Virus record (IMG/VR): IMGVR_UViG_3300043786_000367
Span: 1-43,415 of that record
Direction: 5' to 3' (one strand)
From: a virus
Length of the DNA: 43,415 nt
Positions within the stretch are counted from its first letter, which is position 1; each line of letters begins with the position of its first letter. Positions 3,292 through 31,721 of the stretch are shown one piece after another. The notes under the pieces were generated by a model, which worked only from the letters and a program-made list of their open reading frames with translations, was not told the DNA's origin and made no database searches. Position numbers and translations under genes: made by a program.

Positions 3292-4410
3292 TCAAGAGGG
3301 TAAATATACAGTGGTACCAAATGGCGCTTGTGAGTGTCGCGTTGTAGCTACCCAAAGCGTCGGTGCGATGCAGTTGCGTTCGGCTTCGTCGAAGTCGCTA
3401 GACTCCAGGTCTGTGAGATACACAATTGCCTGGACATCCGGGTGGTGCTCTTTAATGTAAGCAAATGCCGGGGCAAATGCTGTACCGCCACGACCCTTGA
3501 ACGTACGTTTGTTGTCCGTGATCCGTTGTCCACGGTCAAACACATGCACGTCCTGGACGTTGGCGTCGCACTGTATAAATACGACGGACTCGGGTCGGAC
3601 TTGAGCGAGCACTGCGTCTAGTTCGCTGAAGAACTGAACACCCTGCTCGTCAGAGATAGATCCGCTGGAGTCAGCGACGATTGCAACTTTACCGCAGGCT
3701 TCTTCGTACATTGACGGAAGATATTCGTCTTCCGAAATGTAAGCACGATTTGGTTTACGCCAGGTAAAGTCGTCGTTAGTAAGATCGGTAAAGAACGGCC
3801 AGAGAATAGTACGCCAGTCGACCTTCGGGTCAAGAATATCGGTTAGTGCAAGCTCCAGGTGACCTGGCATCTTGCCGCGTGATTTAGCTACCGAGAGTGC
3901 TTCCCCAACAGCGATCTGCCATTGGGATTCCATCTCGGCAGCAGAACCAGACTCTATGCTGCCGCTGTTTGCATCAAGCACAATACCCCAGGCGCACGGC
4001 TTGTGCTTCTTGGGTTCTTGTTGGAGTTTGCTGTAGATGGCTTCTGCAGACATGTCTTTATAAGCCGGATCTACTAAGCCGCCTTTGGGCAGAATAAAAC
4101 CCGCGTCCACAAGATGGTTGTTGATAGCGTAGTCGCAAGCAACGTTCCACAAGCTGTGGTCGCGGGCTTGTCTGCGAGTTTGATGGTTGAAGACACAATG
4201 CATAACTTCGTGGGCGATTAACCCACGAAGCTGCATTGGATCTAGTTTCCGTATGAAATCAGAGTTGTAGAAAAAACTTGTGCCGTCAGTGGCTGCCGTC
4301 TTTACGTCCTCTTTTTCAACGGGGCGTAGTCTCAAGGCCAGCGTTCCGAAGAACGGCTGTTCCATGAGCAGTTGCGATCGCGCCTTGATAAGTGCGCTTT
4401 CAGCAGACAT
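3292..4410 (-). CDS. VWA-like / putative zinc metallopeptidase protein (DUF2201-type)
   Basis: The 372-aa protein has two parts. The N-terminal part carries a zincin signature HEVMH at residues 67-71, followed by NVACDYAINN (89-98), as in the putative metallopeptidase domain of DUF2201 proteins. The C-terminal part is a von Willebrand A-like fold with a MIDAS motif DSSGS (247-251), GGT (308-310) and TDL (333-335). Such proteins are usually encoded beside MoxR AAA+ ATPases, and here moxR lies two genes upstream. MoxR-VWA pairs act in chaperone-like remodelling or metal-cofactor insertion in bacteria; the job in phages is not established. It has a strong TAGGAGG ribosome site. Peptidase activity is not proven by HEVMH alone. 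Confidence 0.85.
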   Translation of the reverse strand: MSAESALIKARSQLLMEQPFFGTLALRLRPVEKEDVKTAATDGTSFFYNSDFIRKLDPMQLRGLIAHEVMHCVFNHQTRRQARDHSLWNVACDYAINNHLVDAGFILPKGGLVDPAYKDMSAEAIYSKLQQEPKKHKPCAWGIVLDANSGSIESGSAAEMESQWQIAVGEALSVAKSRGKMPGHLELALTDILDPKVDWRTILWPFFTDLTNDDFTWRKPNRAYISEDEYLPSMYEEACGKVAIVADSSGSISDEQGVQFFSELDAVLAQVRPESVVFIQCDANVQDVHVFDRGQRITDNKRTFKGRGGTAFAPAFAYIKEHHPDVQAIVYLTDLESSDFDEAERNCIAPTLWVATTRHSQAPFGTTVYLPS

Positions 4411-4411
4411 G

Positions 4412-5104
4412 TTAGCCTCCTACTAGTTTTGCGGTAAGTACTACTTCATTTACAAATGAGTCGTCGAATTGAACTTCTTCTCGGATCTGTTTGGCACGCT
4501 CGACACGAGTAACCTTGGTGTACATGCGCGTCTTGTGCTCGTGCGGAACAAACGATTCGCCTGCTGGCCAGGTAGTAAGCAATTGCTTAACTGTTGTGCA
4601 AGCGTCCAAAAGATCTTTGATCTTTTTGGAATAGTCATGCTGTTCAGCATAGTGATCAACAATGTCTTTAGAAAGTTGTTGCAAAGGGCCAGCAAGATCT
4701 GCACGCGTCTGCGCACTAAAGTCCTCAAAGCAGAAATCTGCTGTGCCCCAGGACGAGCCTCGGAAAAGCTTGATCTGAGGTACCATCTCAATCGGAATAG
4801 TTTTGTTGGTACCGTCAGGAAAAGACGTGGTGCCAAAGTTAGTTTTAGAAGATAGGTTAACAACAGCGTCAGCAGTCTGAGCTACGTTGTTAGGTACTCC
4901 GCCAAGCGAAGTGAACGTATAGCGGTTGCGTGTCTCGTACATATCTTTAAGAACCTTATACGCTTCGGATCCCATGATGCCGTCGCGGATTCGGTCGCAA
5001 AGCCAAGTAGTAGGCTTGGGCATAGGTTTGGCAACCTTGAAAGCTTCCATAGCGTTACGATGAATATCGCTACGGATTTCGTTAGTTAATCGTACAGAAG
5101 CCAT
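4412..5104 (-). CDS. Hypothetical protein in the moxR-VWA cassette, 230 aa
   Basis: A 230-aa protein lying between moxR (10 bp upstream) and the VWA gene (1 bp downstream), so almost certainly co-expressed with both. The N-terminus reads MASVRLTNEIRSDIHRNAM, which resembles the start of a phage family sometimes annotated as a nucleotide-modification-associated domain (Nmad5-like). That match is from memory and weak. The C-terminal third is charged (MYTKVTRVERAKQIREEV) and looks helical. A substrate or adaptor of the MoxR-VWA pair is an equally reasonable guess. Confidence 0.75.
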   Translation of the reverse strand: MASVRLTNEIRSDIHRNAMEAFKVAKPMPKPTTWLCDRIRDGIMGSEAYKVLKDMYETRNRYTFTSLGGVPNNVAQTADAVVNLSSKTNFGTTSFPDGTNKTIPIEMVPQIKLFRGSSWGTADFCFEDFSAQTRADLAGPLQQLSKDIVDHYAEQHDYSKKIKDLLDACTTVKQLLTTWPAGESFVPHEHKTRMYTKVTRVERAKQIREEVQFDDSFVNEVVLTAKLVGG

Positions 5105-5114
5105 GTGATTCTCC

Positions 5115-6113
5115 TTAGATGACTACTTCTACGTTAGCAGTGGTCCAGTCCTTGAATGACTTTTCGTTAATCAAAGTACGTTCTTTAGCCAAGCAGTCGC
5201 GGACAAGAACTACTTGAAACTCGCGTGGCAAACGTCTGTTGTAACGCATGATCGCGTCGAAGTTCAGCTGGTCTACGCGTGATGCCAGCGCACCGGCAAT
5301 TGCGTACAGAGCTGATGGGTCGCTCGGAACGTGGCTGGTTGACGGGTTCTTGATGAGCTCTTCGATGTCAGGCAGATCCTTGTGGATTGCCTTGTGAGCC
5401 AAGTACTCGCCAGCCGGGCCGTCGCCAACAAGCGATGCAACGCCGTAGAACATGTCGTTCATATGCGGCAACTTGCGGCTGACCATCTCCCAGGTACGGG
5501 GCGACGGGAACGCGTAGTCGTTGGCGTCTAAGCTGTGAAGCAGACTCGGACGGTAACGAAGGAACGAGATGATGCTGTCGTCGATTTTGTTACGAAGCGC
5601 CCAGGCTACCCAGTCGTCGATGTTTGCCTCGAGCGTGTAATGCGCGAAGCGGTTCTTAACAGGCGTTGGCATCTCGTGCACAGCGGCACGATCTTGCGAA
5701 CGGTTACCTGCACCAACAATGATGGTGTTTTCTGGAAGAACGTAAGTGCCGATCTTGCGATCGAGCGTCAACTGCAGCAACGCGTTTTGCGTAGCTTTAG
5801 GTGCGTTAGGCAACTCGTCGATGAGCAGCACGACGGTGCCCTGGTAGTTAGTGTCGGGGTAATCCTCAGGCACGCCGTAACGAGTTCGGTACGAGCCGTC
5901 GGCTTGCTCAACTACTTTGAGACCGCCGCGAACGTCGACGGGGTCAAACAAGTTGGCACGAAGCTCGAAGACCTTGGCGTATAGGTCGTTGGAAAATTGA
6001 TAAACAATCTGAGATTTACCGAGGCCTGGCGGGCCCCAGATCATGCTTGGCACGCGGGCTAAGGCGTTGGCTTTTAGTTCGGACTTGAGTTGTGATGGAC
6101 GAATAGTGCGCAT
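5115..6113 (-). CDS. MoxR-family AAA+ ATPase
   Basis: The 332-aa protein shows Walker A GPPGLGKS (27-34), Walker B VVLLIDE (94-100), sensor 1 in GAGNR (134-138) and a later arginine-rich segment VKNRF (152-156), in the order typical of MoxR ATPases. These form ring complexes that remodel partner proteins, usually with a VWA protein encoded nearby. The DUF2201/VWA gene here is the likely partner. The start is the ATG at 6113, behind a clear AAGGAG. The 133-nt leader contains a predicted pseudoknot, which suggests post-transcriptional control of the whole cassette. Confidence 0.93.
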   Translation of the reverse strand: MRTIRPSQLKSELKANALARVPSMIWGPPGLGKSQIVYQFSNDLYAKVFELRANLFDPVDVRGGLKVVEQADGSYRTRYGVPEDYPDTNYQGTVVLLIDELPNAPKATQNALLQLTLDRKIGTYVLPENTIIVGAGNRSQDRAAVHEMPTPVKNRFAHYTLEANIDDWVAWALRNKIDDSIISFLRYRPSLLHSLDANDYAFPSPRTWEMVSRKLPHMNDMFYGVASLVGDGPAGEYLAHKAIHKDLPDIEELIKNPSTSHVPSDPSALYAIAGALASRVDQLNFDAIMRYNRRLPREFQVVLVRDCLAKERTLINEKSFKDWTTANVEVVI

Positions 6114-7945: not shown

Positions 7946-8203
7946 TTAGTTAGCTTTGGGCGGGGTGAGTTCAGTCGTGCGTCGGGCACATGACTTAATG
8001 AACTCAGACATGCTGTCGATCTGTAGGTCGATTTCTTCTAGCGGGATCTTCTTTTCGGTAGATACGTGGAGTGCACCGAATACAAAGCCGAGTGTTCCGG
8101 CTACGGTGCTGATGAAGTCAAACAAGTTGTCGCTGTCGATGCCTTGCGCAACGAGGTCATCGAGTGCAGTCTTCATGATTTGTTTTGTGTTGAGAGATGC
8201 CAT
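7946..8203 (-). CDS. Hypothetical protein, 85 aa
   Basis: The 85-aa protein is largely helical, with a hydrophobic centre (LFDFISTVAGTLGFVFGAL, about residues 27-45) that could be a membrane helix or the core of a small helical fold. The charged C-terminal half ends in ELTPPKAN. It has an AAAGGA ribosome site about ten bases upstream. It is the first gene after the intrinsic terminator at 8231-8266, so its expression needs read-through or a promoter inside that structure. The family is not recognised. Confidence 0.7.
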   Translation of the reverse strand: MASLNTKQIMKTALDDLVAQGIDSDNLFDFISTVAGTLGFVFGALHVSTEKKIPLEEIDLQIDSMSEFIKSCARRTTELTPPKAN

Positions 8204-8230
8204 TGTCTGGTTGTCCTTTTGTGTTGGGAA

Positions 8231-8266
8231 TAAAAAAGCCCGCTTGACCTGGTGGCCAAACGGGCT
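8231..8266 (-). terminator. Intrinsic terminator (leftward)
   Basis: On the minus strand AGCCCGTTTG pairs with CAAGCGGGCT (10 bp with one G-U pair, loop of 10 nt), followed by TTTTTTA. It is a textbook rho-independent terminator. Only 27 bp separate it from the next start codon, so it may act as an attenuator or as the 3' end of the structured RNA upstream. Confidence 0.85.
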
Positions 8267-8544
8267 GTGGTGGTAGGTGGAAGTCAGGGCTGGATAGAGG
8301 GTTAGCCTTCTCCAAGCATCCGGTGGAGGCCATACATTACTGCTGGCCAGGCCCTAAACTTCCGGTTCGGTAATTATATATGAAGTGCTTCCCCTATGCG
8401 GCGGTCTTTGTCATCGCACCACAAACACTTAACGCAATGTGGTATCCGCATCCCGACCACAGGGGACTGTCGTGCTGCTAACGCCGGAATTCACCGGGGA
8501 GAACGCTACGGGAAACCATCCCGTTTCTCATCGTGCGCGTCACA
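8231..8544 (-). ncRNA. Candidate structured non-coding RNA, about 300 nt
   Basis: A 340-bp stretch without a convincing gene folds into ordered helices. Domain 1: TCCCCT-ATGCGG (plus 8390-8401) pairs with CCGCAT (8446-8451) and AGGGGA (8461-8466), enclosing CCACA/TGTGG (8419-8423 with 8438-8442). Domain 2: 8279-8293 pairs with 8347-8363 in three blocks (GGAAGT/ACTTCC, AGGGC/GCCCT, TGG/CCA), enclosing a CTCCA/TGGAG hairpin (8310-8328). A further ACGGGA/TCCCGT hairpin lies at 8508-8524. The stretch ends in the intrinsic terminator, which sets the strand. No known RNA class was recognised. An 11-codon frame inside (8334 to 8299) could be a leader peptide. Confidence 0.45.
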
Positions 8545-8730
8545 CTAGCCGTTGGTATCGGCACGTTGCAAAAAGTCGTAAAGCTCTTGTACTGAGTAGT
8601 TGTAAAACTTCTGATTCTTTAACTTGGTGTTAGAATGGGTAAGCACAGCGTGCATGATTTCGTGTATCTCTAAAGCTAACTTTTGTTCAGTCGATAACTG
8701 TGTCAGTAGGTTTTTTAGGCCATTAGTCAT
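8545..8730 (-). CDS. Mini zincin-motif protein, 61 aa
   Basis: A 61-aa protein whose centre reads LALEIHEIMHAVLTHSN: HEIMH-x4-H (HExxH at about residues 22-26), the zinc signature of metallopeptidases. It resembles the same segment of the DUF2201/VWA protein encoded at 3292-4410, but is far too short to be a full enzyme. I chose the internal ATG at 8730, behind GGGAG, since the longer frame from 8829 would run through two strong hairpins. It may be a truncated or decoy partner of the MoxR-VWA system, or an unrelated small zinc protein. Confidence 0.6.
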   Translation of the reverse strand: MTNGLKNLLTQLSTEQKLALEIHEIMHAVLTHSNTKLKNQKFYNYSVQELYDFLQRADTNG

Positions 8731-8762
8731 GGCACACTGTCTCCCTGGCGGCCAGAAGTTGA

Positions 8763-8828
8763 TCCCTCCCCGCCGAGGTATCAGCGACGGGGAGGGACCG
8801 TGGTCGTTTTGGTCAAGGGTGACGACCA
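8763..8828. other. Two adjacent strong hairpins upstream of the mini zincin gene
   Basis: TCCCTCCCCG (8763-8772) pairs perfectly with CGGGGAGGGA (8788-8797) around a 15-nt loop, and TGGTCGT (8801-8807) pairs with ACGACCA (8822-8828). Neither is followed by a T-run on either strand, so they are not standard intrinsic terminators. They may slow or process the leftward transcript. Confidence 0.55.
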
Positions 8829-8846
8829 ACCTTCTCTAGGGTTTGG

Positions 8847-9491
8847 TTACGCGGCGCGCAGCTGCTTCATAAAATCAGCAACTTCGTTAGCCTCGGATTC
8901 CTGCTGGAGACGGGCGACAATGTCGTCCATAACCGGCATGGCCTGCGAGAACGAGTTACACACCGTCTCGACGTACCAGTTGCCGTCCTCGTCCTTGGCG
9001 CGCTGCTCGAAGTGGTAGAGCGGAGCGATGTCGGTGAGGTACGCCATCTTGGCGGCGAGCAAAGTGTGCAGGCGGGTGAGCGCCATGAAGTCGCTATCCA
9101 CCAGCTCGGGGATACGCTCGTTCGTAGCGTAGACTCCGACATAGTCACCGACGTCTTGTGAGAAGTCGATGCCGTTGCCGAATTCCTGCTTGTCGTTCGC
9201 CACATACAAGCGGCGAGCGGCCCAGCAGACACCGTTCATGATGGACTGAATGAAGCTGAGCAAACGCTCCGGCTTGAACGGCGGTCCCTCAACCGGGACT
9301 CCCTGCTCAAGCTCGGCGGTCACTGCAGCCTGACGAGCGCGCTGCAAACGGAAGAATGCAAGAGCAATACGCTCGAGCGGATCGTCCGCTTGTTGAGACT
9401 CCACGTACTTGGCTATGGAGCCAATAGTGGTGTTTTTCTCGGACATGTAGCCGATGACGTTGGGGATGAAAGTCTGATCTTTAACGGTCAT
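8847..9491 (-). CDS. Hypothetical protein, 214 aa
   Basis: The 214-aa acidic, mainly helical protein is the largest product of the early small-gene block. No enzymatic motif is visible. It contains segments such as ERIALAFFRLQRARQAAVTAE and DFMALTRLHTLLAAKMAYL that look like long helices, and it ends in FMKQLRAA. Codon use is noticeably more GC-rich than that of its neighbours, as in the capsid gene, which suggests strong expression. An AGGTAA ribosome site lies 7-8 bases before the ATG, and the start overlaps the upstream gene by 11 bp. The family is not recognised. Confidence 0.75.
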   Translation of the reverse strand: MTVKDQTFIPNVIGYMSEKNTTIGSIAKYVESQQADDPLERIALAFFRLQRARQAAVTAELEQGVPVEGPPFKPERLLSFIQSIMNGVCWAARRLYVANDKQEFGNGIDFSQDVGDYVGVYATNERIPELVDSDFMALTRLHTLLAAKMAYLTDIAPLYHFEQRAKDEDGNWYVETVCNSFSQAMPVMDDIVARLQQESEANEVADFMKQLRAA

Positions 9492-9684
9492 TGTAGTTAC
9501 CTATGGTTGTTAAGTTGTAGTCGGAAAGCAGCTTTGCCAACTGGCTGGCATTGTCTGCATCGTCAAACGCTGTATCGATATCAACGTCTGATGATTCGTG
9601 GTTAGCCAACTGGTTCTCGTGATCAACGAGCCAATCCCAGTGGACAGTGTTTAGATTTAGAACCGTATACGGATTTGAAGCCAT
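9481..9684 (-). CDS. Small acidic protein, 67 aa
   Basis: A 67-aa acidic protein rich in Asp and Asn (VDIDTAFDDADNASQLAKLL), with a hydrophobic and aromatic start (YTVLNLNTVHWDWLVDH). No family is recognised. It has a clear AAAGGA ribosome site and overlaps the next gene by 11 bp. Small acidic early phage proteins sometimes mimic DNA or inhibit host enzymes, but nothing here shows that directly. Confidence 0.65.
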   Translation of the reverse strand: MASNPYTVLNLNTVHWDWLVDHENQLANHESSDVDIDTAFDDADNASQLAKLLSDYNLTTIGNYNDR

Positions 9685-9701
9685 GGTTAAGTATCCTTTG
9701 G

Positions 9702-9869
9702 TTACTTGGAGACATCGTCTAAGTCATCTTCAATGTCTAATAACAGGATAGTCATTAGTGCGAGCATTACTTCATCTGGGTGCTCCTTAGCATATTGGAT
9801 TGCTTGTTGTAGTTTGTGAGTGATCCGTTGTGCGTGGTTAGTTGTTAGTGGTAATTGCAACTGTTTCAT
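9702..9869 (-). CDS. Small early protein, 55 aa, first gene after a hairpin promoter
   Basis: I chose the internal ATG at 9869, behind AGGTACC. It gives 55 aa and leaves a 37-nt leader from the predicted start site at 9907; the longer frame from 9956 would run through the promoter element. The protein has a basic helix (AQRITHKLQQAIQYAKEHPD), a hydrophobic stretch (VMLALMTILLLDI) and an acidic end. The YAKExPD plus hydrophobic-tail arrangement recurs in the 57-aa product at 11275-11448, also first behind such a promoter. The function is unknown. Confidence 0.65.
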   Translation of the reverse strand: MKQLQLPLTTNHAQRITHKLQQAIQYAKEHPDEVMLALMTILLLDIEDDLDDVSK

Positions 9870-9903
9870 ACTGGTACCTGTTAGTTGGATCACTGGTTGC
9901 ACC

Positions 9904-9931
9904 GACCGCGAGCGCGGAACGCGCGAGCGTT
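9904..9931 (-). promoter_or_regulatory. N4-type hairpin promoter, copy 1
   Basis: On the plus (template) strand: GACCGCGA, stem GCGCG, loop GAA, stem CGCGC, then GAGCGTT. Flanks and loop are identical to two other copies, and the stem differs but pairs fully. Counting the loop centre as -11 puts template CC at +1/+2 (9907/9906), so RNA would start GG 37 nt before the ATG at 9869. The assignment to an N4-like virion RNA polymerase is inference from geometry. Confidence 0.6.
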
Positions 9932-10143
9932 CAGAACTCCTCGGTTGGAGTCTCAAGTTCGCGCAGCTTTTCCTCCGCCATCATGCGCATGTGCGCCATG
10001 GAGTAGATGGCATGGGCTGCTTCGTTGGTGAGGCGAAGGGTTTCATACATGGCCTTGGAGTCTTGGTCTGGGGAGGACTGCAACGAGCTCAAGGCCCGTT
10101 GCAGTGAGTCAACCGCCAGTACGTAGCACTGTGTGTCGTTCAT
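9931..10143 (-). CDS. Small helical protein, 70 aa
   Basis: A 70-aa, nearly all-helical, Met- and Ala-rich protein (NEAAHAIYSMAHMRMMAEEKLREL). The ATG at 10143 overlaps the upstream stop in ATGA, which favours it over an earlier in-frame ATG at 10176. Its own stop overlaps the edge of the hairpin promoter that drives the next gene. No family was recognised. It may be a small coiled-coil partner protein. Confidence 0.68.
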   Translation of the reverse strand: MNDTQCYVLAVDSLQRALSSLQSSPDQDSKAMYETLRLTNEAAHAIYSMAHMRMMAEEKLRELETPTEEF

Positions 10144-10469
10144 ATGGATGGGTGTCCTGCTCCCCAACGGTGCCAAGAGGCTACGTCAGCAGCCTCAGAT
10201 TCTGTTTGGTAGTAGTCCGAAATACGGTCGTACGGCTCGTACCACCAACGGTTAGTTACTTCGTCGAAGTTGAACCCGGCACGTCCGACATACCAGCCTG
10301 CGCCTGAACGCAGTGGGATAGGTGGGCTGACGGCAAGCGTGCCGTGGGGGAACGTGTTAGCAAAATCCTTAGTTACTAACATGAAGAACTGATCGAGGTT
10401 AACGACTGGAGCGTCGTCGCAGTAAATGACCATTGGGTCGAATAGATCAATTTGCTGTGGCTCGGACAT
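10140..10469 (-). CDS. Hypothetical protein, 109 aa, first gene after hairpin promoter 2
   Basis: A 109-aa protein with an aromatic-rich C-terminal half (GWYVGRAGFNFDEVTNRWWYEPYDRIS). That segment reads like a short beta-sheet module with a YVGRAGFxFDExxxxWxEP pattern, but I cannot assign a family. The start follows AGAGGTAT. It lies 49 nt downstream of the predicted start site at 10518 and should therefore be among the first genes made. It is translationally coupled to the 70-aa gene. Confidence 0.7.
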   Translation of the reverse strand: MSEPQQIDLFDPMVIYCDDAPVVNLDQFFMLVTKDFANTFPHGTLAVSPPIPLRSGAGWYVGRAGFNFDEVTNRWWYEPYDRISDYYQTESEAADVASWHRWGAGHPSI

Positions 10470-10514
10470 GGTTGATACCTCTGGTTGTTACATAAGTGAA
10501 TCAATAGGACATCT

Positions 10515-10542
10515 GACCGCGAATCGGGAACCGATGAGCGTT
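10515..10542 (-). promoter_or_regulatory. N4-type hairpin promoter, copy 2
   Basis: Template-strand element: GACCGCGA, stem ATCGG, loop GAA, stem CCGAT, then GAGCGTT. The predicted start site is C10518, giving RNA that begins GGUCAG with a 49-nt leader to the ATG at 10469. The stem differs from copies 1 and 3 in sequence but is perfectly paired. Confidence 0.62.
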
Positions 10543-10560
10543 GTCCTGTATAAGTGAACA

Positions 10561-10940
10561 GTGGTTAGTGGTCAGTTTTAACCACTAGTTTGAGTTATCC
10601 ACAGACTGTGTGCAGCTAAGGGTCTAAATGTGTGCAGCAAACAGGGCAATGTGTGCAGCAAACGAGGGTGTGTGTGCAGGCATTTTTCCTTATAAATCAA
10701 TGTGTGTTCACTGTGTGCAGGCATTTTTTCAGTTCGCAAGAAAAACAACATGTTGTATTTTTCAAATTGCACCCCGTTTTAAAAATGGTAAAAACCCTGC
10801 ACACACTGCACACATTTCGTTATCGCAGGGTTAAAGTGTTTGTAAATCAGGCACTTGCATGCGTTTGTCTGCAACAAACTTGCCTGCACACATGCCTGCA
10901 CACAAACCGTAATCGCTGCACACACTGCACACATGCCTGT
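10561..10940. other. Putative replication origin: DnaA box plus head-on iterons around an AT-rich core
   Basis: No convincing gene lies in this region. A consensus DnaA box TTATCCACA is at 10595-10603. The 9-mer TGTGTGCAG occurs at 10607, 10629, 10650, 10671 and 10712. Its complement CTGCACACA occurs at 10797, 10806, 10884, 10896, 10916 and 10925. All left copies face one way and all right copies the other, around an AT-rich core (10681-10796). Left copies are spaced 22, 21, 21 and 41 bp, about whole helical turns. A GTGGTTA/TAACCAC inverted repeat (10561-10585) flanks the DnaA box. The region separates leftward from rightward genes. Origin function is inferred. Confidence 0.65.
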
Positions 10941-11020
10941 GTGAGCGGATCACGGGCAACTGGCCATGAGCACACGACCGTTGTCCACTGGCACATGACA
11001 TGTGTTGCGTGCAAACAACA

Positions 11021-11050
11021 ACTGACCACGGTATGTTGACCGTGGTCAGT
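11021..11050 (-). terminator. Perfect 12-bp hairpin, probable end of the first leftward transcript
   Basis: ACTGACCACGGT (11021-11032) and ACCGTGGTCAGT (11039-11050) pair perfectly around a 6-nt loop. On the minus strand it is followed by the T-rich TGTTGTTTG. It lies 10 bp past the stop of the 53-aa gene and just before the origin-like region, so it may stop the transcript from hairpin promoter 3 before it enters the iterons. It could also be a binding palindrome. Confidence 0.55.
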
Positions 11051-11059
11051 GGATAGTTG

Positions 11060-11221
11060 TTAGTCGTTGGAGAGCAGTGATACGAGGGTGCCGATAACGG
11101 CTAATCCGGTAGCGATGATGAGTGAGTGGCTAACCGGGGGCTCAGTGAAGAACGAGCCGAGGAAGGTGATGTTTGCGAGGATGCTGAAGGCCAGTGATGT
11201 CTTGCCGCTGGTGAGGGTCAT
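11060..11221 (-). CDS. Small membrane protein, 53 aa
   Basis: A 53-codon frame with a good AAGGAA ribosome site. The product has two hydrophobic helices (about 9-26 and 33-50) separated by a short polar turn (TEPPVSHS), so it is probably an inner-membrane hairpin protein. It is the second gene behind hairpin promoter 3. No family was recognised. Early membrane proteins of this size in phages often affect superinfection or host energy metabolism, but the function here is not known. Confidence 0.65.
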   Translation of the reverse strand: MTLTSGKTSLAFSILANITFLGSFFTEPPVSHSLIIATGLAVIGTLVSLLSND

Positions 11222-11274
11222 TGGATAGTTCCTTGTGGTTAGTGATGGGAGGTTGGAGGTCCCTCCCGATTGGA

Positions 11275-11448
11275 TTAGCTGAAGAGGTTGAGTACGCCTA
11301 GGACGAATAGAGCTGCCATGTCAGGCTTCTCTTTAGCGTAGGTGATGACAGACTTGGATGCTTCTTTTGCTTTCTCAGCAGCGAGATACATCTGGTCCGG
11401 TTGTTCGTTGTCGTTGATGTTGTTGGTTGTATTGGCTTGGTTGTCCAT
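11275..11448 (-). CDS. Small early protein, 57 aa, first gene after hairpin promoter 3
   Basis: A 57-codon frame behind a strong AGGAG. A 12-bp palindrome GAGTAATTACTC (11449-11460) overlaps the ribosome site. The N-terminal 18 residues are Asn/Asp/Gln-rich, followed by a basic helix (YLAAEKAKEASKSVITYAKEKPD) and a hydrophobic end (MAALFVLGVLNLFS). The second half resembles the 55-aa protein at 9702-9869. The leader from the predicted start site at 11495 is 46 nt. The function is unknown. Confidence 0.68.
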   Translation of the reverse strand: MDNQANTTNNINDNEQPDQMYLAAEKAKEASKSVITYAKEKPDMAALFVLGVLNLFS

Positions 11449-11491
11449 GAGTAATTACTCCTAGTTAATTGACAGATACACAATAGTCACT

Positions 11492-11519
11492 GACCGCGAG
11501 ACACGAAGTGTCGAGCGTT
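11492..11519 (-). promoter_or_regulatory. N4-type hairpin promoter, copy 3
   Basis: Template-strand element: GACCGCGA, stem GACAC, loop GAA, stem GTGTC, then GAGCGTT. The predicted start site is C11495, with RNA beginning GGUCAG. It is the rightmost leftward promoter, at the edge between the two transcription directions. Confidence 0.62.
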
Positions 11520-11787
11520 GACGCTGGGGGGTTACTGGGCGACAAGGTTCCACGATTCTGGTTAAAAACAAGGTTCCAATGGCTAAATTCCGGGAAAGGG
11601 GTTGGTGCTGGAGGCGAGGGGGGAGACTATGAGTGAGCAAAATAGATAGAAAAACGCATACCCCCTCCTATAGAAATTTTTTCTGCAAAATTTTTCTATA
11701 GAAATTTTTTGCGGAATCAAGGGTATACTCCGGCAACTTCACCCGGCGCAGGAGATCGACGGTCGATTTTCCGGGTAGGTTGTACTA
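11520..11787 (+). promoter_or_regulatory. Leader region of the rightward genes with two direct-repeat pairs
   Basis: No gene is seen in these 268 bp. ACAAGGTTCCA occurs at 11542-11552 and 11568-11578. CTATAGAAATTTTTT occurs at 11668-11682 and 11696-11710, 28 bp apart, and TTTCTATAG before the second copy also makes an inverted repeat with the first. TATACT (11724-11729) resembles a -10 box but lacks a well-placed -35. Because all rightward genes start just after it, it probably holds the late promoter; which polymerase uses it is unknown. Confidence 0.5.
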
Positions 11788-12258
11788 GTGTCAGACACTA
11801 AGACATGCGCTCGCTGCCAGACGGACCTGCCCATAGCGAGTTTCGAGGCTATGAAAGGCGGCTTCAGGACAATATGCCGCCCCTGTAATCAAGCCACGCG
11901 CCGTCAACAACGGTCCACGGGCTACGAACCGTACTTAACGAATCTCGTATCTACGAGCAAAAGTAAGAGCCGTAGTCGTGGGTTCACGGACTACGAGGTA
12001 ACCGCCGAGTACCTCATTGATCTCTGGCAACGGCAAGAAGGCCGTTGTGCGATATCAGGAGTAGTGCTCACTCACCATAACGACGGGTCGGGAGCCAAGG
12101 ACTTTAACGCAAGCATCGACCGAATAGACAGCCAGCAAGGGTATATACCGGGAAACGTGCAGCTCGTTGCTCTACGGGTTAATCTCTTAAAACAGAGCTT
12201 AAGCAACGACATGCTGTACTGGTGGGTGAAGACAATTTACCAGTACTCTTGTGATTAG
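11788..12258 (+). CDS. HNH endonuclease with N-terminal zinc ribbon
   Basis: The 156-aa protein starts at a GTG (11788) behind GTAGG. Residues 7-33 hold a zinc ribbon (C7-x2-C10, C30-x2-C33). The C-terminal half has the HNH arrangement: GRCAISG (85-91), ASIDRID (108-114), then GYIPGNVQ (118-125). HNH proteins encoded next to the terminase in other phages (for example HK97 gp74) are required with terminase for DNA packaging, and here it precedes terminase by two genes. A homing-type nuclease is the alternative. Confidence 0.85.
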   Translation: MSDTKTCARCQTDLPIASFEAMKGGFRTICRPCNQATRRQQRSTGYEPYLTNLVSTSKSKSRSRGFTDYEVTAEYLIDLWQRQEGRCAISGVVLTHHNDGSGAKDFNASIDRIDSQQGYIPGNVQLVALRVNLLKQSLSNDMLYWWVKTIYQYSCD

Positions 12259-12279
12259 ACAGGAGCAGGGCTAATATAA

Positions 12280-12558
12280 ATGCTGCCGAAAGTCCAGGTG
12301 TTCGCAATAGAGGGCTTCGAAGATGCCATTATCGGTACGGCATACCGAGGTGGCCACGAAGTGTTGGTGTACGACGGGTGGATATTTGAGGCAATCGTCG
12401 CCTCTATCGACCCTAATCCCACATCTCTTCACGAATACCTGACCAGGATCCGCTTGCATGAGCTAGGGGATCGGGCACCGGTTTTTGTTTATCTGGATGA
12501 AGAAGTTGTTGGAGAGCTTGCCGATTCAATCAGAGAACCAGGCACCCCTGTCCACTGA
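12280..12558 (+). CDS. Hypothetical protein, 92 aa
   Basis: A 92-aa acidic protein between the HNH nuclease and small terminase. It seems alpha/beta, with a strand-rich start (VQVFAIEGFEDAIIGTAYRGGHEVLVYDG) and an acidic C-terminal half (FVYLDEEVVGELADSI). No family was recognised. GGAGCAGGG lies upstream of the ATG. The position suggests late expression and perhaps a packaging role, but nothing in the sequence confirms it. Confidence 0.65.
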   Translation: MLPKVQVFAIEGFEDAIIGTAYRGGHEVLVYDGWIFEAIVASIDPNPTSLHEYLTRIRLHELGDRAPVFVYLDEEVVGELADSIREPGTPVH

Positions 12559-13048
12559 CATAGCTCAGACTGATGAGTTGATGTCCCATACTGAGTTCCA
12601 GGCGCTCACTCCATACATGGGGCTGACGCTTGGAGCTCTGACCGTGCAGCAGGAGCGGCTGGTTCTATACATGGCGCGCGGCATGACGATTGCCGCTGCT
12701 GGCCGTGCAGCTGGGTACGCAAGTTATCAGACGGCGTTGGATGCGGCTAAGCGCCCGGCAGTAGTTCAGGCTCTGAACTTCTTTCGGGAGCAGATGCGGG
12801 AAGAGGTCAAGTTCACCAGGACGCACGCGCACCAGATGTACCTGGAAGCGTACAACGCCGCAGTGAACGCGACCGAGATGAAGAACACGGTTGACTCGTT
12901 GGTGAAGCTGCACGGGCTAACGGCCCCAGACACCGCCATGCAGGTCAACATAAATTTGAACCCCGCTCAGATAGAGCGGATGACTGACGAAGAGTTGTTG
13001 AAGCTGGCTGGTAAGGATGTCGGTTACTTGGAGCCTGACGCGCCTTGA
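12497..13048 (+). CDS. Terminase small subunit
   Basis: The 183-aa protein (from the ATG at 12497) lies directly before the large terminase and overlaps it by four bases (TTGA). Residues about 50-90 (LTVQQERLVLYMARGMTIA, then AAGRAAGYAS) form a helix-turn-helix typical of small terminases that recognise the packaging site, followed by a helical oligomerisation region. The start is uncertain: TTG 12485, ATG 12497 and ATG 12581 are all in frame and none has a strong ribosome site. The first two overlap the previous gene by 60-75 bp. Confidence 0.8.
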   Translation: MKKLLESLPIQSENQAPLSTDIAQTDELMSHTEFQALTPYMGLTLGALTVQQERLVLYMARGMTIAAAGRAAGYASYQTALDAAKRPAVVQALNFFREQMREEVKFTRTHAHQMYLEAYNAAVNATEMKNTVDSLVKLHGLTAPDTAMQVNINLNPAQIERMTDEELLKLAGKDVGYLEPDAP

Positions 13049-26270: not shown

Positions 26271-29200
26271 ATGGCCGAAAGAACACTAGTCCTTCCGGAG
26301 CAAGAGGATCAGTTCACGTCTTTTTTACGGGACGTGTACTCATCTACTCCAGAGGAAGATGCGCAGTTCCAAAGATTTGCTGCTGGGGAGAACGCTCCGC
26401 AGCTACCAACTGCGCCTGGCAACTTGCAAGAAGTATTTAGCGCCGGTATTGAGTCCGGTGTTCAAGGACTAACAGCAGATCTTGAATACTTTAAAGCGCT
26501 TGGCAACACCCTTATGGGGGACGAACAAGCCGCTGCTTTAAATATCCAAGAGGCTCGACTCCGTGAGGAGTTTGCTGCAGCGCCAGTACAAGGTCTCGAT
26601 ACGTTTGAACAGTTCTTAGACCAGCCTACATTCGGCGGGTTTATTGAACAGGCAACCAAAAGTTTTGGCCAGGTTCTGCCATCAGCCGCGCTATCTATAG
26701 CGGGTGCCGGTACCGGTGCTATTACAGCCGCCGTCGGCCGTGGCGTACTTAATCAGGTCAACAAGCAGGTTGCCAAGCGAATCATAAAAGACTCCGTTGA
26801 GCGTACTGCCAACGGCGTTGCTGATCCTGTCGAACAACAAATTGCAGAGCTGGCTTATGGTTCTCTCCGCACGGCCGCTAAGCGTGGCGCTATAGGTGGT
26901 GCATTCGCTGCCGAATATGCGCCTATGTCGGGTAGCAATTTGTCCGAGGCTCTCGAAGCCGGACAGCCACTTGACCAGGCCAACGCGCTACGGGCCGCTG
27001 CTATCGGCATTCCGCAAGCAGCAATCGGCGTCGGTAGTGAGTACGCATTACTTAAGCTGATCGGCGAGCAAGCCACTAAGCGTGCCGCTGTTGAAGGCGG
27101 CGTATTTGCAAACTTTGCGAAGCGGTTAGGCACCGGTGCGCTCCAAGGCGGTGCTATCGAAGCCACCACTGAAGTAGCTCAAGAAGGCATTAGCGTCCTA
27201 AACCGCGCTGACCTAGACCCGCTATTTACTGCAGAAGACGCCAAGATGCGTCTCGCAGAAGCTGCGTTTGCTGGTTTCTTTGGCGGTGCTGCTCCTGGCG
27301 GTGCTGGTGGCGCTATAGGCGGAACGCTAGACGCTGTGTCGTCTATGAAGCCTGGCCAAGGAGTGCTTACTAATGTAGGCAACATTGTAGAAAAGGCTAA
27401 AGGCTTCCTAGAAACAGCTCGCGGGCAGCGCGTTGATCAGCAGATCAACAACGAGCAGTTCGGCGATGTGGCGGCTGGCTTAACAACTCCCGAGTCTGAA
27501 GGCGACATCGACGCTCAGCTCCGTGCGATGGTTGATCCGTCTAGCGGCAAAAAAGCCGTGTGGATTGCTGGTGCCGCTCCAAAATTTAACGCTCCGCAAA
27601 ACCGGGTTAAGACGGCTAGCATTAATGGAACACTGGCATATTCAGCATTTGTCCCAGGCCGAGGCACAATCGTCTCTACTGACGAAGACGTAGTGCGCGA
27701 AGTTATTGCAGCCGGTGCATCAGATAAGGCCTTGCAGATCGCCCTTGGTTATAGCGCCGTAAAAGATTATTCCGCTCCCGGTGACATTGTTGTTCAGGCA
27801 CTCGACCGTAACGGTCGGGTCATCTCTGAAGAAGTCACGTCGCCAGAGGGGGTAAGTGCTGCTTTCGAAGCCGCTCGTAATCTGATGCCCGAAGGTGGCA
27901 GCATCCAACAGACTACTGTAGAAAAGGCGCTCGAAGATCGTAAGCGCCGCTTTGAGTCAGAGCAGCGAGTCGAGGTTCGTGACATTGACTTGTCTGACGA
28001 ACAGACCGACGAGACAGACGCTGACCAGGTAGAGATGTTCGGCCAAGGCGTGCAAGCCGTAGAGGGGCAACGCACAGTTGTTCGAGCGTATGGTCGTAAG
28101 ACTGACCCGAACCGAGTGTTTGATAACACACAGTCCGCCCGTGCCTCTTACGACACGGTGTTCGGTGAGACTAACTGGGCTGACCCGCGTTTCGCGTCTA
28201 TGACCGAAGCGATGCTTAACGCTGCTGTAAATGAGCAGCGCAGTAACCCAGACTCAGCGGTATCTATTGAAGACACGCCAGATGGTGGGTATCAAATCGT
28301 TCGCGATGATTTTGGCGATCTGTTCCGCTCAATTGATACGGCTGGCAACGAAGTACGTCTAAATCTCCCTGAGTTTTTACGTTCTGCCATACAGAGAGCA
28401 CGCCGAAGCAAGTACGCTCAGAACTCTCGCGTTACTATTGTTGGCCCAGACGGAAAAAAGTCAGCCGTAAACCTTGTTGACCTTACTGCGGCTGGGCAGC
28501 GCTTACTAGAAGGCCGTGAAGGATCTGGGTTTCAGTTGCGCCAAGACCCACGTACCGGCGCTACATACGTATCTCCAGAAGCAGCCGCCAGGGCTGGTTT
28601 GCTTGAAGTCTTGGGCGATTTGGCTGTTGAAGGGTACGATGTACAGATCGATGGGCAGTCGCTTTTCCCTGGCTTCCAGCTGACGCCTGACCGTAATCAG
28701 GCTGCTGCTGGCCGTATCCCTGCTCGATTAGGCAACGTAACTGCGGCAGTTATTGGCGGCCGTCAGCGATCTTTGAACGATCTTCTGAACCCCGTCCAAG
28801 AGTCGGTGATGACGGCAGAAGAGCGCCAAGCTGCGCTTGCTGCTGAACCGCTCGGCCCGCCAAGAGATGATGTTTCAGACGGCCGTACCGAAACAGAACG
28901 TATGATCGAGTCGAGCGTTACGGGCGGTGAGCTCCTAACGCCGATGAACATCGACACGCCGCGCTCAGCTATTGATCTGCGCGCTGGTCGTGCTCCTACT
29001 ACTGTAAGCCCGTTGGCCGAAAGACGCTCGGCGCAAGAGCGTATCTCTAACGCCATCAACAGCATGGTCGGCGATATTGTTCGCGACCTGTTTGACTCGC
29101 TCAAGTTTGCCGACCCGCCGCATATTTTTACGTTCGCTGAACTCATAGCTATGTCGGATGACCAGCTATTGCAGCTGTTTGGCGGCGCGTTGAATCCAGT

Positions 29201-31721
29201 ACGCGAAGCAATCGCTAGCATGCAGAATAGCTCCACAAAGATGGGCATGCATATTTCTGGACAGTTTGGAAAGATAATTATCCTTCGAGAGTCCGGCAAC
29301 GTACTGCAAGACGCTCTTGTTATTGCGCACGAAATTGGCCACAGCCTCTACAAAGAGGAGCGGAATAAAGCGCTTGAGAACTCCGCTATTCGTAAGCGGC
29401 TGTTTAGAGCCTATCAGTCATCCCCATCGTTCAAAGACCTAAAGGACAAGTACGGGTTTGATCTCGGCTTTGAAGAGTGGTTCTCTGACCAGGTGGCTTT
29501 GTGGGCTAACAAGCGGTACAGAAGCCGTCAGAAGGCTGATAGTCTCGTTAAGAAGTTCTTCAAGGACTTTGCGGCTCGCCTTGAGTCGCTCTGGAAGCAG
29601 ACATCGGAGTCTTTCCGTAAACGGTTTGGCGGACGACTTGGAGCCGTCAACGAAGACTTCGAGACGTTCATGGACGCTGTCCTTGAGTCCAGAAAGTCAC
29701 AAGTAAAGGAAAACGGCTTATCCTTTACTGAGCGAGCATTCGTATACGAGCTTAACGACCTTAATATTGCCAACGGCGGCGCAGCCCGAGCGGCGCACTG
29801 GCAGTCGAAGATCTCGCAGCTTAAGAAGAGCCCATACGTTAAACCTATCCTTCGGCTTGTATCGACGGCCGATGGCATCCTGCGTATGTACGCCGGTAAC
29901 GAAATAGCGGATATGTTTTACGTACGGGCCCAAGATCCGACCGGCAAAGGCCGTCTTGGTTTTGTACCGCAGTCGGCGCGTACGTTTGACTTGTATAAGA
30001 ACCGACTTGATACGGAGTTAGGGTCATTTGATGATCCGGCTCTGGACGCAGAGTTCGATAAGGCAGCGTCAGACACGCCGACCGCACAGTTGACCGGTAA
30101 GGCGCTGGCCATCCGCCAGTTCCTTGAGGACTTCTACTCAGAATACGTCAGCCCATCGAAGACTAAGATCGGCTTCCAGCGCGACTACTTTCCGCGTCTG
30201 CTTGATCTTGTGGCTATCTCAAATGACCCGCAAGCATTTGTCGATTTGATTCTGCAGGCCGACCCAAGTGCAAACCGCGCAAAAATAACTAGCAGAGTTC
30301 AGAAGCTCGTAGACCTTCAGCAGGCGGTAACTAACGGCGCCGACGTAGAAGGCAACCCGTTGGACCCGGCCGCTAGCGTTAACGAGGCGCTTGAGTTAAC
30401 GAAGAACTTAACTCGCCAGCAGCTTCGAGATAACGGCTTTTTGCTCCCGCCAAAGCAGGCGTTTTCTGAGTACGTCCGCAAGGTAATCAAGCGCGTCGAG
30501 TTCGACCGCGCTACCAAAGATGACCAGGGTAACGATCGCCTCAAGCCGCTGCTGGATGCTCTTGCACCAGAGGATCGCGAGCAGGCGCTGCAGGTTATCA
30601 ACACCTACATGGGTTATCGCGCTCCGCTCAGTCCGTTCTGGCGAAAGCTGAACAGCTGGGGGCAGTTCATTCAGTTCGTGACTATCCTGCCGTTTGCTGC
30701 AATCTCGTCTGTGACAGACCTGGCTGGTCCGGTTATCGCGTCAAAAGAGTTTGGCGACCTGACGACTGGCATGAAAGAGGTAGTAGCGACTATCAAAAAC
30801 CGCGAAGAGGCCAAACAGTTGGCTCGCGACATCGGTGTCGTTACGCCAGAAGCCGTGGCTAACGCGTGGATCACTGATGCGGACGCCGACTATATGGATC
30901 CGACCGCTCGTAAGTGGTCTGACCACTGGTTCTCGTTGACTGGTTTGAACTGGTTCACTCGGTTCACTCGTGAGTTTGCTACCGGCATGGGCGTGCAGTT
31001 CATTACGAAACACGCACGTAATGAGTTCAATAACCCGCGATCGGATCGGTACCTCGAAGAGCTTGGTCTGACCCGAGCCGATGTAACGAGCTGGCTCAAC
31101 AGTGGGCGCAAGCTTTCGACGCCAGAAGGTAAGAAGGTTACTCAGGCGCTGCAGCGATTCGTTGAATCTTCGACGCTGCGTCCTAATGCTGCAGAGCGAC
31201 CGGTGTGGGCGTCTGATCCGCACTTCGCTTTGATATGGCAGCTGAAAGGTTACTTTTACTCCTACGGTAAGGTCATCCTAGGCGGTATGTTCTCGGAGGC
31301 TGAAACCAGACTTCGTGAGCAGAATATTGGAACCCCGTGGCAGCGTGTTGGGTCCGCAGCCGGGCTGCTCGCGCTTACTGCGGTAGCGACTATGCCGCTG
31401 GCAATGCTTGGTATGGAACTTCGCGAGTACGCAAAGTTTGGCCTGGCAGCGTTCTTACCGTTCGTTGAGGCCGACCAGAAGTACTTCCGGACCGACCGTA
31501 TGGACTGGTCTGAGTATCTCGGAACGGCCTTTGAGCGGTCAAACTTTAGCGGGCCATTTGGGCTAGCTACAGGGGCTTCAAATGCTGCTAACTTTGGCGA
31601 CAGCCCACTGTTTACGCTTCTTGGACCCACGACAGAGACTATCGATACCGCTATGACTAATGGCTGGCGGATAGACCGGACGTTGAAAGACCGGCTGCTG
31701 CCAATTTATAACCAGCTGTAA
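26271..31721 (+). CDS. Giant internal virion protein with zinc-metallopeptidase motif, 1816 aa
   Basis: The 1816-aa protein is the largest in the window and follows the gp15-like gene, the place of T7 gp16. It has hydrophobic segments near residues 130-150 and again near 1465-1495 and 1690-1710, suited to membrane insertion. In the middle lies IAHEIGHSLYKEE (HExxH, 1020-1024), with FEEWF (E1068/E1069) about 44 residues later as a possible third ligand, so it seems to hold a zincin rather than the lytic transglycosylase of T7 gp16. The C-terminal part (WFTRFTREFATG) recalls large polyvalent phage proteins. It likely forms the inner-membrane part of the ejection channel. No RNA polymerase motifs were found in it. 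Confidence 0.85.
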   Translation: MAERTLVLPEQEDQFTSFLRDVYSSTPEEDAQFQRFAAGENAPQLPTAPGNLQEVFSAGIESGVQGLTADLEYFKALGNTLMGDEQAAALNIQEARLREEFAAAPVQGLDTFEQFLDQPTFGGFIEQATKSFGQVLPSAALSIAGAGTGAITAAVGRGVLNQVNKQVAKRIIKDSVERTANGVADPVEQQIAELAYGSLRTAAKRGAIGGAFAAEYAPMSGSNLSEALEAGQPLDQANALRAAAIGIPQAAIGVGSEYALLKLIGEQATKRAAVEGGVFANFAKRLGTGALQGGAIEATTEVAQEGISVLNRADLDPLFTAEDAKMRLAEAAFAGFFGGAAPGGAGGAIGGTLDAVSSMKPGQGVLTNVGNIVEKAKGFLETARGQRVDQQINNEQFGDVAAGLTTPESEGDIDAQLRAMVDPSSGKKAVWIAGAAPKFNAPQNRVKTASINGTLAYSAFVPGRGTIVSTDEDVVREVIAAGASDKALQIALGYSAVKDYSAPGDIVVQALDRNGRVISEEVTSPEGVSAAFEAARNLMPEGGSIQQTTVEKALEDRKRRFESEQRVEVRDIDLSDEQTDETDADQVEMFGQGVQAVEGQRTVVRAYGRKTDPNRVFDNTQSARASYDTVFGETNWADPRFASMTEAMLNAAVNEQRSNPDSAVSIEDTPDGGYQIVRDDFGDLFRSIDTAGNEVRLNLPEFLRSAIQRARRSKYAQNSRVTIVGPDGKKSAVNLVDLTAAGQRLLEGREGSGFQLRQDPRTGATYVSPEAAARAGLLEVLGDLAVEGYDVQIDGQSLFPGFQLTPDRNQAAAGRIPARLGNVTAAVIGGRQRSLNDLLNPVQESVMTAEERQAALAAEPLGPPRDDVSDGRTETERMIESSVTGGELLTPMNIDTPRSAIDLRAGRAPTTVSPLAERRSAQERISNAINSMVGDIVRDLFDSLKFADPPHIFTFAELIAMSDDQLLQLFGGALNPVREAIASMQNSSTKMGMHISGQFGKIIILRESGNVLQDALVIAHEIGHSLYKEERNKALENSAIRKRLFRAYQSSPSFKDLKDKYGFDLGFEEWFSDQVALWANKRYRSRQKADSLVKKFFKDFAARLESLWKQTSESFRKRFGGRLGAVNEDFETFMDAVLESRKSQVKENGLSFTERAFVYELNDLNIANGGAARAAHWQSKISQLKKSPYVKPILRLVSTADGILRMYAGNEIADMFYVRAQDPTGKGRLGFVPQSARTFDLYKNRLDTELGSFDDPALDAEFDKAASDTPTAQLTGKALAIRQFLEDFYSEYVSPSKTKIGFQRDYFPRLLDLVAISNDPQAFVDLILQADPSANRAKITSRVQKLVDLQQAVTNGADVEGNPLDPAASVNEALELTKNLTRQQLRDNGFLLPPKQAFSEYVRKVIKRVEFDRATKDDQGNDRLKPLLDALAPEDREQALQVINTYMGYRAPLSPFWRKLNSWGQFIQFVTILPFAAISSVTDLAGPVIASKEFGDLTTGMKEVVATIKNREEAKQLARDIGVVTPEAVANAWITDADADYMDPTARKWSDHWFSLTGLNWFTRFTREFATGMGVQFITKHARNEFNNPRSDRYLEELGLTRADVTSWLNSGRKLSTPEGKKVTQALQRFVESSTLRPNAAERPVWASDPHFALIWQLKGYFYSYGKVILGGMFSEAETRLREQNIGTPWQRVGSAAGLLALTAVATMPLAMLGMELREYAKFGLAAFLPFVEADQKYFRTDRMDWSEYLGTAFERSNFSGPFGLATGASNAANFGDSPLFTLLGPTTETIDTAMTNGWRIDRTLKDRLLPIYNQL

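Follow-up and report, generated by a model that had tools for sequence, protein, structure and literature searches.

In the articles consulted, DNA hairpins on the template strand that act as start signals belong to phage N4 and the phages related to it, and go with a single giant polymerase. The promoter contacts given for N4 are -11A/G, -10G, -8G, +1C and a C:G loop-closing pair, and extrusion of the template strand is stated to need a 5′ G and a 3′ A in the loop (PMC4496689, available part). Here we describe three hairpin elements in an uncultured virus (IMG/VR record IMGVR_UViG_3300043786_000367; its 43,415 bases, analysed as a whole, are called the window). They stand at the head of the leftward (early) gene arm, their fold is under selection, and the + strand, the template of the leftward genes, is the strand that folds well. 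In most units of the wider family, 10 nucleotides (nt) separate the end of a 3- or 4-nt loop from a conserved [G/A]GTC[A/G]; the recognised units all point one way, stand at the head of the early arm and have 35-95 nt from GTC to the start codon. Our preferred reading, to which we give about an even chance, is that the elements are template-strand hairpin promoters of early genes, N4-like in form, with a reader that is not recognisably of N4 or T7 type. No description of the element was found in open PMC articles.

The geometry equals that of the N4 promoters, with a GNA loop at -10 to -12 and a predicted purine start at the hairpin foot. On the template strand of the N4 record, P1 reads CC-ATAA-GTTGC-GAA-GCAAC and the next hairpin promoter, which we take to be P2, reads CC-AAAA-GAAGC-GGA-GCTTC; the window counterpart is CC-GCGA-N5-GAA-N5′. 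All three window elements have CC at the predicted +1/+2, and all three have -10G, a -11 purine and -12 A (GAA), which are not universal in the family. As originally predicted, loop position, -10G, -11 purine and +1C match P1 on the N4 record; the available part of PMC12633501 shows the P1 hairpin as well. The geometry is seen again in other members of the family.

Pairing in the three elements and their clade

The pattern GACCGCGA-N5-GAA-N5′-GAGCGTT has three copies with zero mismatches in the window, all in one orientation, as the original prediction had reported:

9904..9931, + strand: element 1, with outer stem 9907-9909/9927-9929, GA/GA 9910-9911/9925-9926, inner stem 9912-9916/9920-9924 and GAA loop 9917-9919
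10515..10542, + strand: element 2, architecture as element 1, inner stem ATCGG, loop 10528-10530
11492..11519, + strand: element 3, architecture as element 1, inner stem GACAC, loop 11505-11507

No further copy was found in the window with up to three mismatches allowed, and the mean expectation by chance was 0.02 (100 dinucleotide-preserving shuffles). The inner stem of element 1 is GCGCG, and in each element the inner stem is faced by its exact complement. In 3/3 elements the full fold is CGC-GA-N5-GAA-N5′-GA-GCG, where outer CGC/GCG pairs flank tandem G·A mismatches (GA/GA); in two relatives the outer pairs are compensated to CGT/ACG. The 5-bp stem first proposed, with its exact complement, is therefore only the inner part of a longer hairpin, the outer pairs and GA/GA having been overlooked.

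The exact pattern was found in 26 IMG/VR stretches. One of these, L004, was rejected as a family element, since its stem is unpaired and the match is one of chance. Across the collected loci, 212 distinct contexts fit the flank pattern and 18 have a perfect inner stem, all of them from the phage family, namely 17 from the clade of the window and one from L247. The inner stem is thus perfect in 18/19 family contexts vs 0/193 non-family contexts with the same flanks, which bears out the claim that pairing and not sequence is kept; the remaining family context has decayed to 4/5 inner pairs. L247 is a more distant relative (69% identity in the ATPase, 32% in a 214-aa protein). Its 214-aa homologue is preceded, at 5770-5815, by the clade flanks enclosing a new stem (GTGAT), and the outer stem there has a G-T wobble on the template strand.

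In a motif-free scan of 75 loci (829 kb), 5-bp hairpins were grouped by flank and loop, and GA|GAA|GA came out as the top class: 34 loci carry 11 distinct stems of it, against 2 stems in the runner-up class. One of the 11 stems (CTAAC) sits in the structural arm. In 17 clade elements, which were chosen by hand, picked with GAA and aligned without the decayed G002 copy, 136/136 cells are paired and 6/8 pairs vary on both sides; a C-G to T-A pair change occurs twice and one-sided (G-U type) changes do not occur. The covariation score was 0.684 vs 0.156 for shuffled alignments (0/500 shuffles as high), and slid controls reached at most 0.181. The covariance-model scan suggested in the original prediction gave 16 matches at E ≤0.003 in 43 sources (866 kb), all in early arms, and it included one copy, that of G002, in which pairing has decayed. 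Three weaker matches (E 1.3 to 4.9) are divergent units of G016 and G025 and one site in phiA008. Flanks and loop, said at first to be identical, are so in the three window elements; the clade shows some variation in CGC and at the end of GAGCGTT, and elsewhere in the family both loops and flanks change.

The predicted starts C9907, C10518 and C11495 lie 38, 49 and 47 nt before an ATG (37, 48 and 46 counted from GTC), close to start codons as had been proposed. The genes that follow are:

9702..9869, - strand: early gene after element 1, 55 aa, function unassigned
10140..10469, - strand: early gene after element 2, 109 aa, without Pfam or PHROG match
11275..11448, - strand: early gene after element 3, 57 aa, function unassigned

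Elements 2 and 3 stand in gaps of ~800 and ~340 nt, taken as non-coding, with the start codon less than 50 nt away. The start-side halves, whose starts are placed from the geometry, are:

9891..9907, - strand: element 1, GGTCGGT at +1..+7, CAGTG at +13..+17
10502..10518, - strand: element 2, GGTCAGA at +1..+7, TATTG at +13..+17
11479..11495, - strand: element 3, GGTCAGT at +1..+7, TTGTG at +13..+17

In the clade, T16 and G17 are present in 19/19 elements.

The strand that folds and the wider family

Non-Watson-Crick cells were compared between the strands in 15 non-redundant elements that are gene-proximal and have GNA or GNNA loops: 23 read G·A or G·T on the template strand and 2 on the sense strand; the same split in 29 other-loop hairpins, three L128 units among them, is 25:38 (Fisher 4.6e-6). 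When the window's clade is left out, a hand count gives 15:2 template to sense (p 0.0007). Triloops are G-N-A on the template strand in 16/19 gene-proximal hairpins vs 6/61 others (p 2e-9). GNA, GNNA and CTTG are unusually stable DNA loops. Units of G022 and G019 have isolated Watson-Crick pairs with TC/TC (sense strand) or GA/GA (template strand) between them, so that a helix is plausible only on the template; the unit at G022 33589, those of G017 and L131 and some of G019 fail the 7-of-10 rule and were called GA/GA-rich by eye. Some relatives have hairpins without any mismatch, and by energy both strands fold, equally as DNA and with the + strand slightly better as RNA. The asymmetric mismatches and the 3-nt loops indicate that it is the template strand of the early genes which folds, in agreement with the strand assigned by the original prediction.

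In relatives below 80% in the large terminase (TerL), the letters of the clade are missing and changed versions of the unit are present before early genes. On the sense strand the family design is a 10-nt arm, a 3- or 4-nt loop, a 10-nt arm and then GTC[A/G]. Examples are:

G025, sense strand: CGATTCGCGC-TTC-GCGCTCATCG
G016, sense strand: CGTGTCCCCC-TTC-GGGGTCCACG
L136, sense strand: CATTTGGCCT-TTAC-AGTCCAAATG
L128, sense strand: CGAAAAATAA-CAAG-TGATTTTTCG

In G016, the homologue of the window gene 9702-9869 (42% over 55 aa) begins at 44130, and CGCGCATCCT-TTC-AGGATGCGCG ends 41 nt before it: a fully paired 10-bp hairpin with the same loop and with letters unlike those of the window. The place before early genes is kept where the genes differ.

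Of 80 TerL loci, 40 were testable (at least 2.5 kb before TerL). A 10-nt-armed hairpin with its loop end 9-12 nt before GTC[A/G] was found in the early direction in 34/40 loci vs 5/40 in the opposite direction and 0-9 for four control words, a rule that was framed after units had been seen and whose controls were the opposite direction and other words only; by direction, 93 matches were leftward vs 5 rightward. Because GTC[A/G] served as search key in the family scans, its conservation is by construction. Hairpins with a 3-nt loop 10 nt from GTC[AG]G numbered 18 (non-redundant) vs 0-7 at 14 other distances, and four control pentamers gave 2-4 at 10 nt. Without the clade's own pattern the count was 13 vs 0-7, and about 7 of these 13 are recognised units. 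A scan of whole records (12 records and 6 loci) gave 36 matches, of which 30 have GNA, GNNA or CTTG loops; all 30 lie upstream of TerL in the early direction. A chance origin of the elements was rejected by the shuffles, the distance and direction controls and the 0/193 non-family stems.

At +13..+17, 21 elements outside the clade have T 15, T 15, G 14, T 16 and G 17 times; these elements were picked by hand, and the sets collapsed at 75-80% identity still include related elements. In Aeromonas phage phiA008 (TerL 49%) no unit was found by the rules tried, and one model match had E 4.9. A blastn search of the element region against phages gave no match, and looser pattern scans of virus and genome collections gave mostly chance among the matches listed. 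Just after the start-side motif, before some early genes of G022, G023, G019 and L145, there is a small hairpin, TGAGCA-N2/3-ACGCTC, which we find reminiscent of a boxA-type sequence.

In the window, genes from 1 to 11.45 kb run leftward, and from 11.8 kb to the end they are structural and run rightward. The phage is probably podovirus-like, because it has a P22-like portal and a Phage_capsid_3 head protein. Large terminase, a DNA polymerase and two further proteins of interest are encoded:

8847..9491, - strand: early protein of 214 aa, with matches in 9/10 other records
26271..31721, + strand: virion protein of 1816 aa, probably ejection-type, with a zinc-protease-like motif

The 214-aa protein shows 71-83% identity in 4 clade records and 24-36% in 5 others, a far quicker divergence than that of DNA polymerase or helicase. 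Between elements 2 and 3, window 10598-10960 contains many TGTGTGCAG repeats in both orientations (by eye); the block is possibly a replication origin. Upstream of element 3, GGAACCTTGT (sense strand; ACAAGGTTCC on the + strand) occurs twice, at 11542-11551 and 11568-11577; four other records (G002, G019, G023 and G025) have it ahead of their first early gene, and G022 has it there with a single change. At 11021-11050 on the - strand, a 12-bp hairpin whose arm holds GGTCAGT is followed by TTGTTG; it is terminator-like, yet has letters in common with the start-side motif. At 3292-6113 on the - strand, this phage encodes a MoxR-like ATPase that has a DUF2201 metallopeptidase/VWA protein and an Nmad5 protein as neighbours.

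Candidate readers and competing roles of the fold

Under the preferred reading of template-strand promoters, negative supercoiling after DNA entry would extrude the hairpin. An RNA polymerase, either unaided or helped by a phage factor, would recognise the folded template strand and would initiate at the purine opposite the hairpin foot (C9907, C10518 and C11495). Its mode of action would resemble that of the N4 virion-polymerase promoter, with a reader that is not a recognisable N4- or T7-type enzyme. A wider proposal is tentative and somewhat unlikely: that uncultured podovirus-like phages start early genes from single-stranded DNA hairpins via a reader that has no sequence relationship with the N4 enzyme and may be a new virion-carried polymerase. 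This would be a second independent invention, in which promoters are read by DNA shape (GNA loops, tandem G-A pairs) and not by letters. The same geometry is under selection across uncultured phages in which the N4 enzyme was not found. Either there is a new reader, or single-stranded DNA in folded form does something else at the early genes of phages. Through the loops and tandem G·A pairs, DNA structure becomes a signal that can be searched for, and the reader itself is a definite target for such work.

The original prediction also placed an N4-type polymerase elsewhere in the genome, and this part was not borne out. The left end of the window is a cut beyond which the genome runs on; the part absent from the window seems to be contained in G003, a near relative of 49,511 bases with 95-96% identity in the arm that both have, and terminal overlaps are present in G002 (314 bases) and, shorter, in G022, G025, G017 and G019. 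The N4 mini virion RNA polymerase gave no match in 11 records, PF00623 none in 10 (cellular controls positive 14/14) and PF14700 none in 9, N4 not being among them. Ten G002 proteins from beyond the window, with small open reading frames covered only in part, included no RNA polymerase; the G002 proteins there are tail proteins, helicase, exonuclease, primase-like or unassigned. A polymerase hidden in the 1816-aa protein is not favoured, although a very diverged one may be there: PDB sequence and profile searches and hhalign against N4 gave no polymerase signal, with weak models. The C-terminal part was modelled as entirely helical (pTM 0.45) and the middle part poorly (pTM 0.32), while residues 1-384 lie outside the models. 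Foldseek on these models gave nothing at E 0.001 or better; the best match of one of them, a Pol III chain (E 0.24, probability 0.04), is not meaningful.

Several observations weigh against the promoter reading. PF00940 (N4/T7-type polymerase) was found in 0/23 records, five of them with overlapping ends, and the N4 control was positive both times. By hand count, -8G is present in 1/3 window elements and 4/10 distinct clade stems, and the C:G loop-closing pair in 1/3 and 7/10; the elements are thus N4-like in form but miss some defining contacts. Outer CGC/GCG pairing means that the predicted +1 C is base-paired in the full fold. The conserved letters at +13..+17 (mostly TTGTG) exceed the -17..+1 span given for N4 in the available part of PMC4496689, and suggest more than a start site. 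A folded RNA of the + strand would leave the same marks, and such an RNA is antisense to the leaders. Among 4-nt loops, GNNA is not enriched (2/15 gene-proximal vs 8/77) and there is no distance spike (6 at 10 nt vs 0-7).

Exceptions in the family, and a case in Pseudomonas phages, point the same way. Six of the 40 testable loci fail the rule (L115, L126, L131, L132, L134, L135), L126 and L131 having TTT- or CTT-loop versions that miss it by distance or pairing. L128 has CTTG loops, G017/L126 and L131 have TTT or CTT, and the distance is 12-13 nt in some; 6/36 whole-record matches have other loops and were taken as chance. The third G002 copy (L061:10614-10641) has decayed to 6/8 pairs, with GATC in place of GACC and a start codon still 53 nt away. 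Lastly, Pseudomonas phages KPP25/R18 and two relatives (L150 ~25440-25470 and ~25140-25170, - strand; L429-L431) have two perfect 9-bp hairpins in the corresponding position, in one arm whose first two genes start ~40 nt downstream of them, but here the GGA loop is that of the sense strand; the hairpins are identical in all four phages and so show no covariation.

A different role for the folded strand would be that of a single-strand replication or priming site, where a primase or initiator binds the folded + strand and a primer is made from its foot. In plasmid ssi sites the primer is started at the hairpin foot. The same geometry would be expected, all units point one way, elements 2 and 3 flank the repeat-rich block 10598-10960, and G002 has a primase/helicase-like protein (phrog_1829, phrog_1156, DUF5906) whose window homologue is cut by the left end. 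We nevertheless consider this role unlikely, as elements 2 and 3 lie only 49 and 47 nt from a start codon despite gaps of ~800 and ~340 nt, and the place before early genes is kept though the genes differ. Rather unlikely is a double-stranded or cruciform regulatory site, at which a factor would bind the extruded hairpin and GTC[AG]G beside a host RNA polymerase promoter. Conservation to +17 is as for a protein site, and clade positions 11-16 are often TATTGT-like; the -11 A of a -10 box, however, is present in 12/19 clade elements and 2/21 elsewhere, where T leads (12), and a sigma-70 scan of 8000-13000 gave 2 sites vs 3.6 by chance, neither adjoining an element. A sigma-70 -10 box at the elements was rejected on these two results, and the covariation calls for more than a double-stranded site.

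Control of stability, processing or translation by an RNA leader element on the sense strand is distinctly improbable. The mismatches and triloops fit the opposite strand, the G022 and G019 versions have TC/TC on the sense strand and GA/GA on the template, and one-sided changes number 0 in the 136 chosen cells, even though the units lie 35-95 nt before start codons, within a possible 5′ leader, and the energies let both strands fold. A known RNA family was also rejected: Rfam on 8000-13000 gave three matches, all below gathering score and none on an element. A scan for intrinsic terminators lists none of the three elements; two G025 units do carry T runs. Very improbable is a true N4-type promoter whose polymerase was missed or lies on an unsampled part. 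For it speak the exact P1-like loop, spacing and CC, as well as the poor models of the 1816-aa protein, outside which lie its first 384 residues and a 761-aa virion protein; against it stand the empty 23 records with their N4 control, the lack of any profile match, the -8G and closing pair that are not kept, and the all-helical C-terminal model. Of the N4-promoter interpretation, geometry and strand are retained, while the polymerase, -8G and the C:G closing pair are not.

Comparison with known systems

Intergenic phage hairpins with CUUCGG resemble the present units in being TTC-containing hairpins between genes, before a gene; as described in the available part of PMC8948821, they are RNA tetraloops on the sense strand, whereas here the closing pair varies and the mismatches fit the template strand. 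Phage P23-45 offers a precedent for a polymerase hidden in a giant, tail-fused virion protein (PMC10770324, available part); no such polymerase domain was found here, with weak models. Closer in layout are the N4-like Pseudomonas phages LUZ7, LIT1 and PEV2, for which the available part of PMC3715699 gives three potential early-region hairpin promoters with 3-nt loops and a virion polymerase of 3,398 aa; here such an enzyme was not found.

N4 P1-P3 (Schitoviridae) differ from the present elements in several respects. Here there is an extra outer stem with tandem G-A mismatches, RGTC[AG] and mostly TTGTG are conserved after the start, relatives use other loops (GTTA, GTAA, GCTA, CTTG), the N4 polymerase was not found, and -8G and the C:G pair are not kept. 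Both systems share a template-strand hairpin before early genes, a GNA loop at -10..-12 (GAA in P1), a 4-nt spacer from the 5-bp stem to +1, CC at +1/+2 and, as far as the available text on N4 goes, stem bases that are not contacted and are free to vary.

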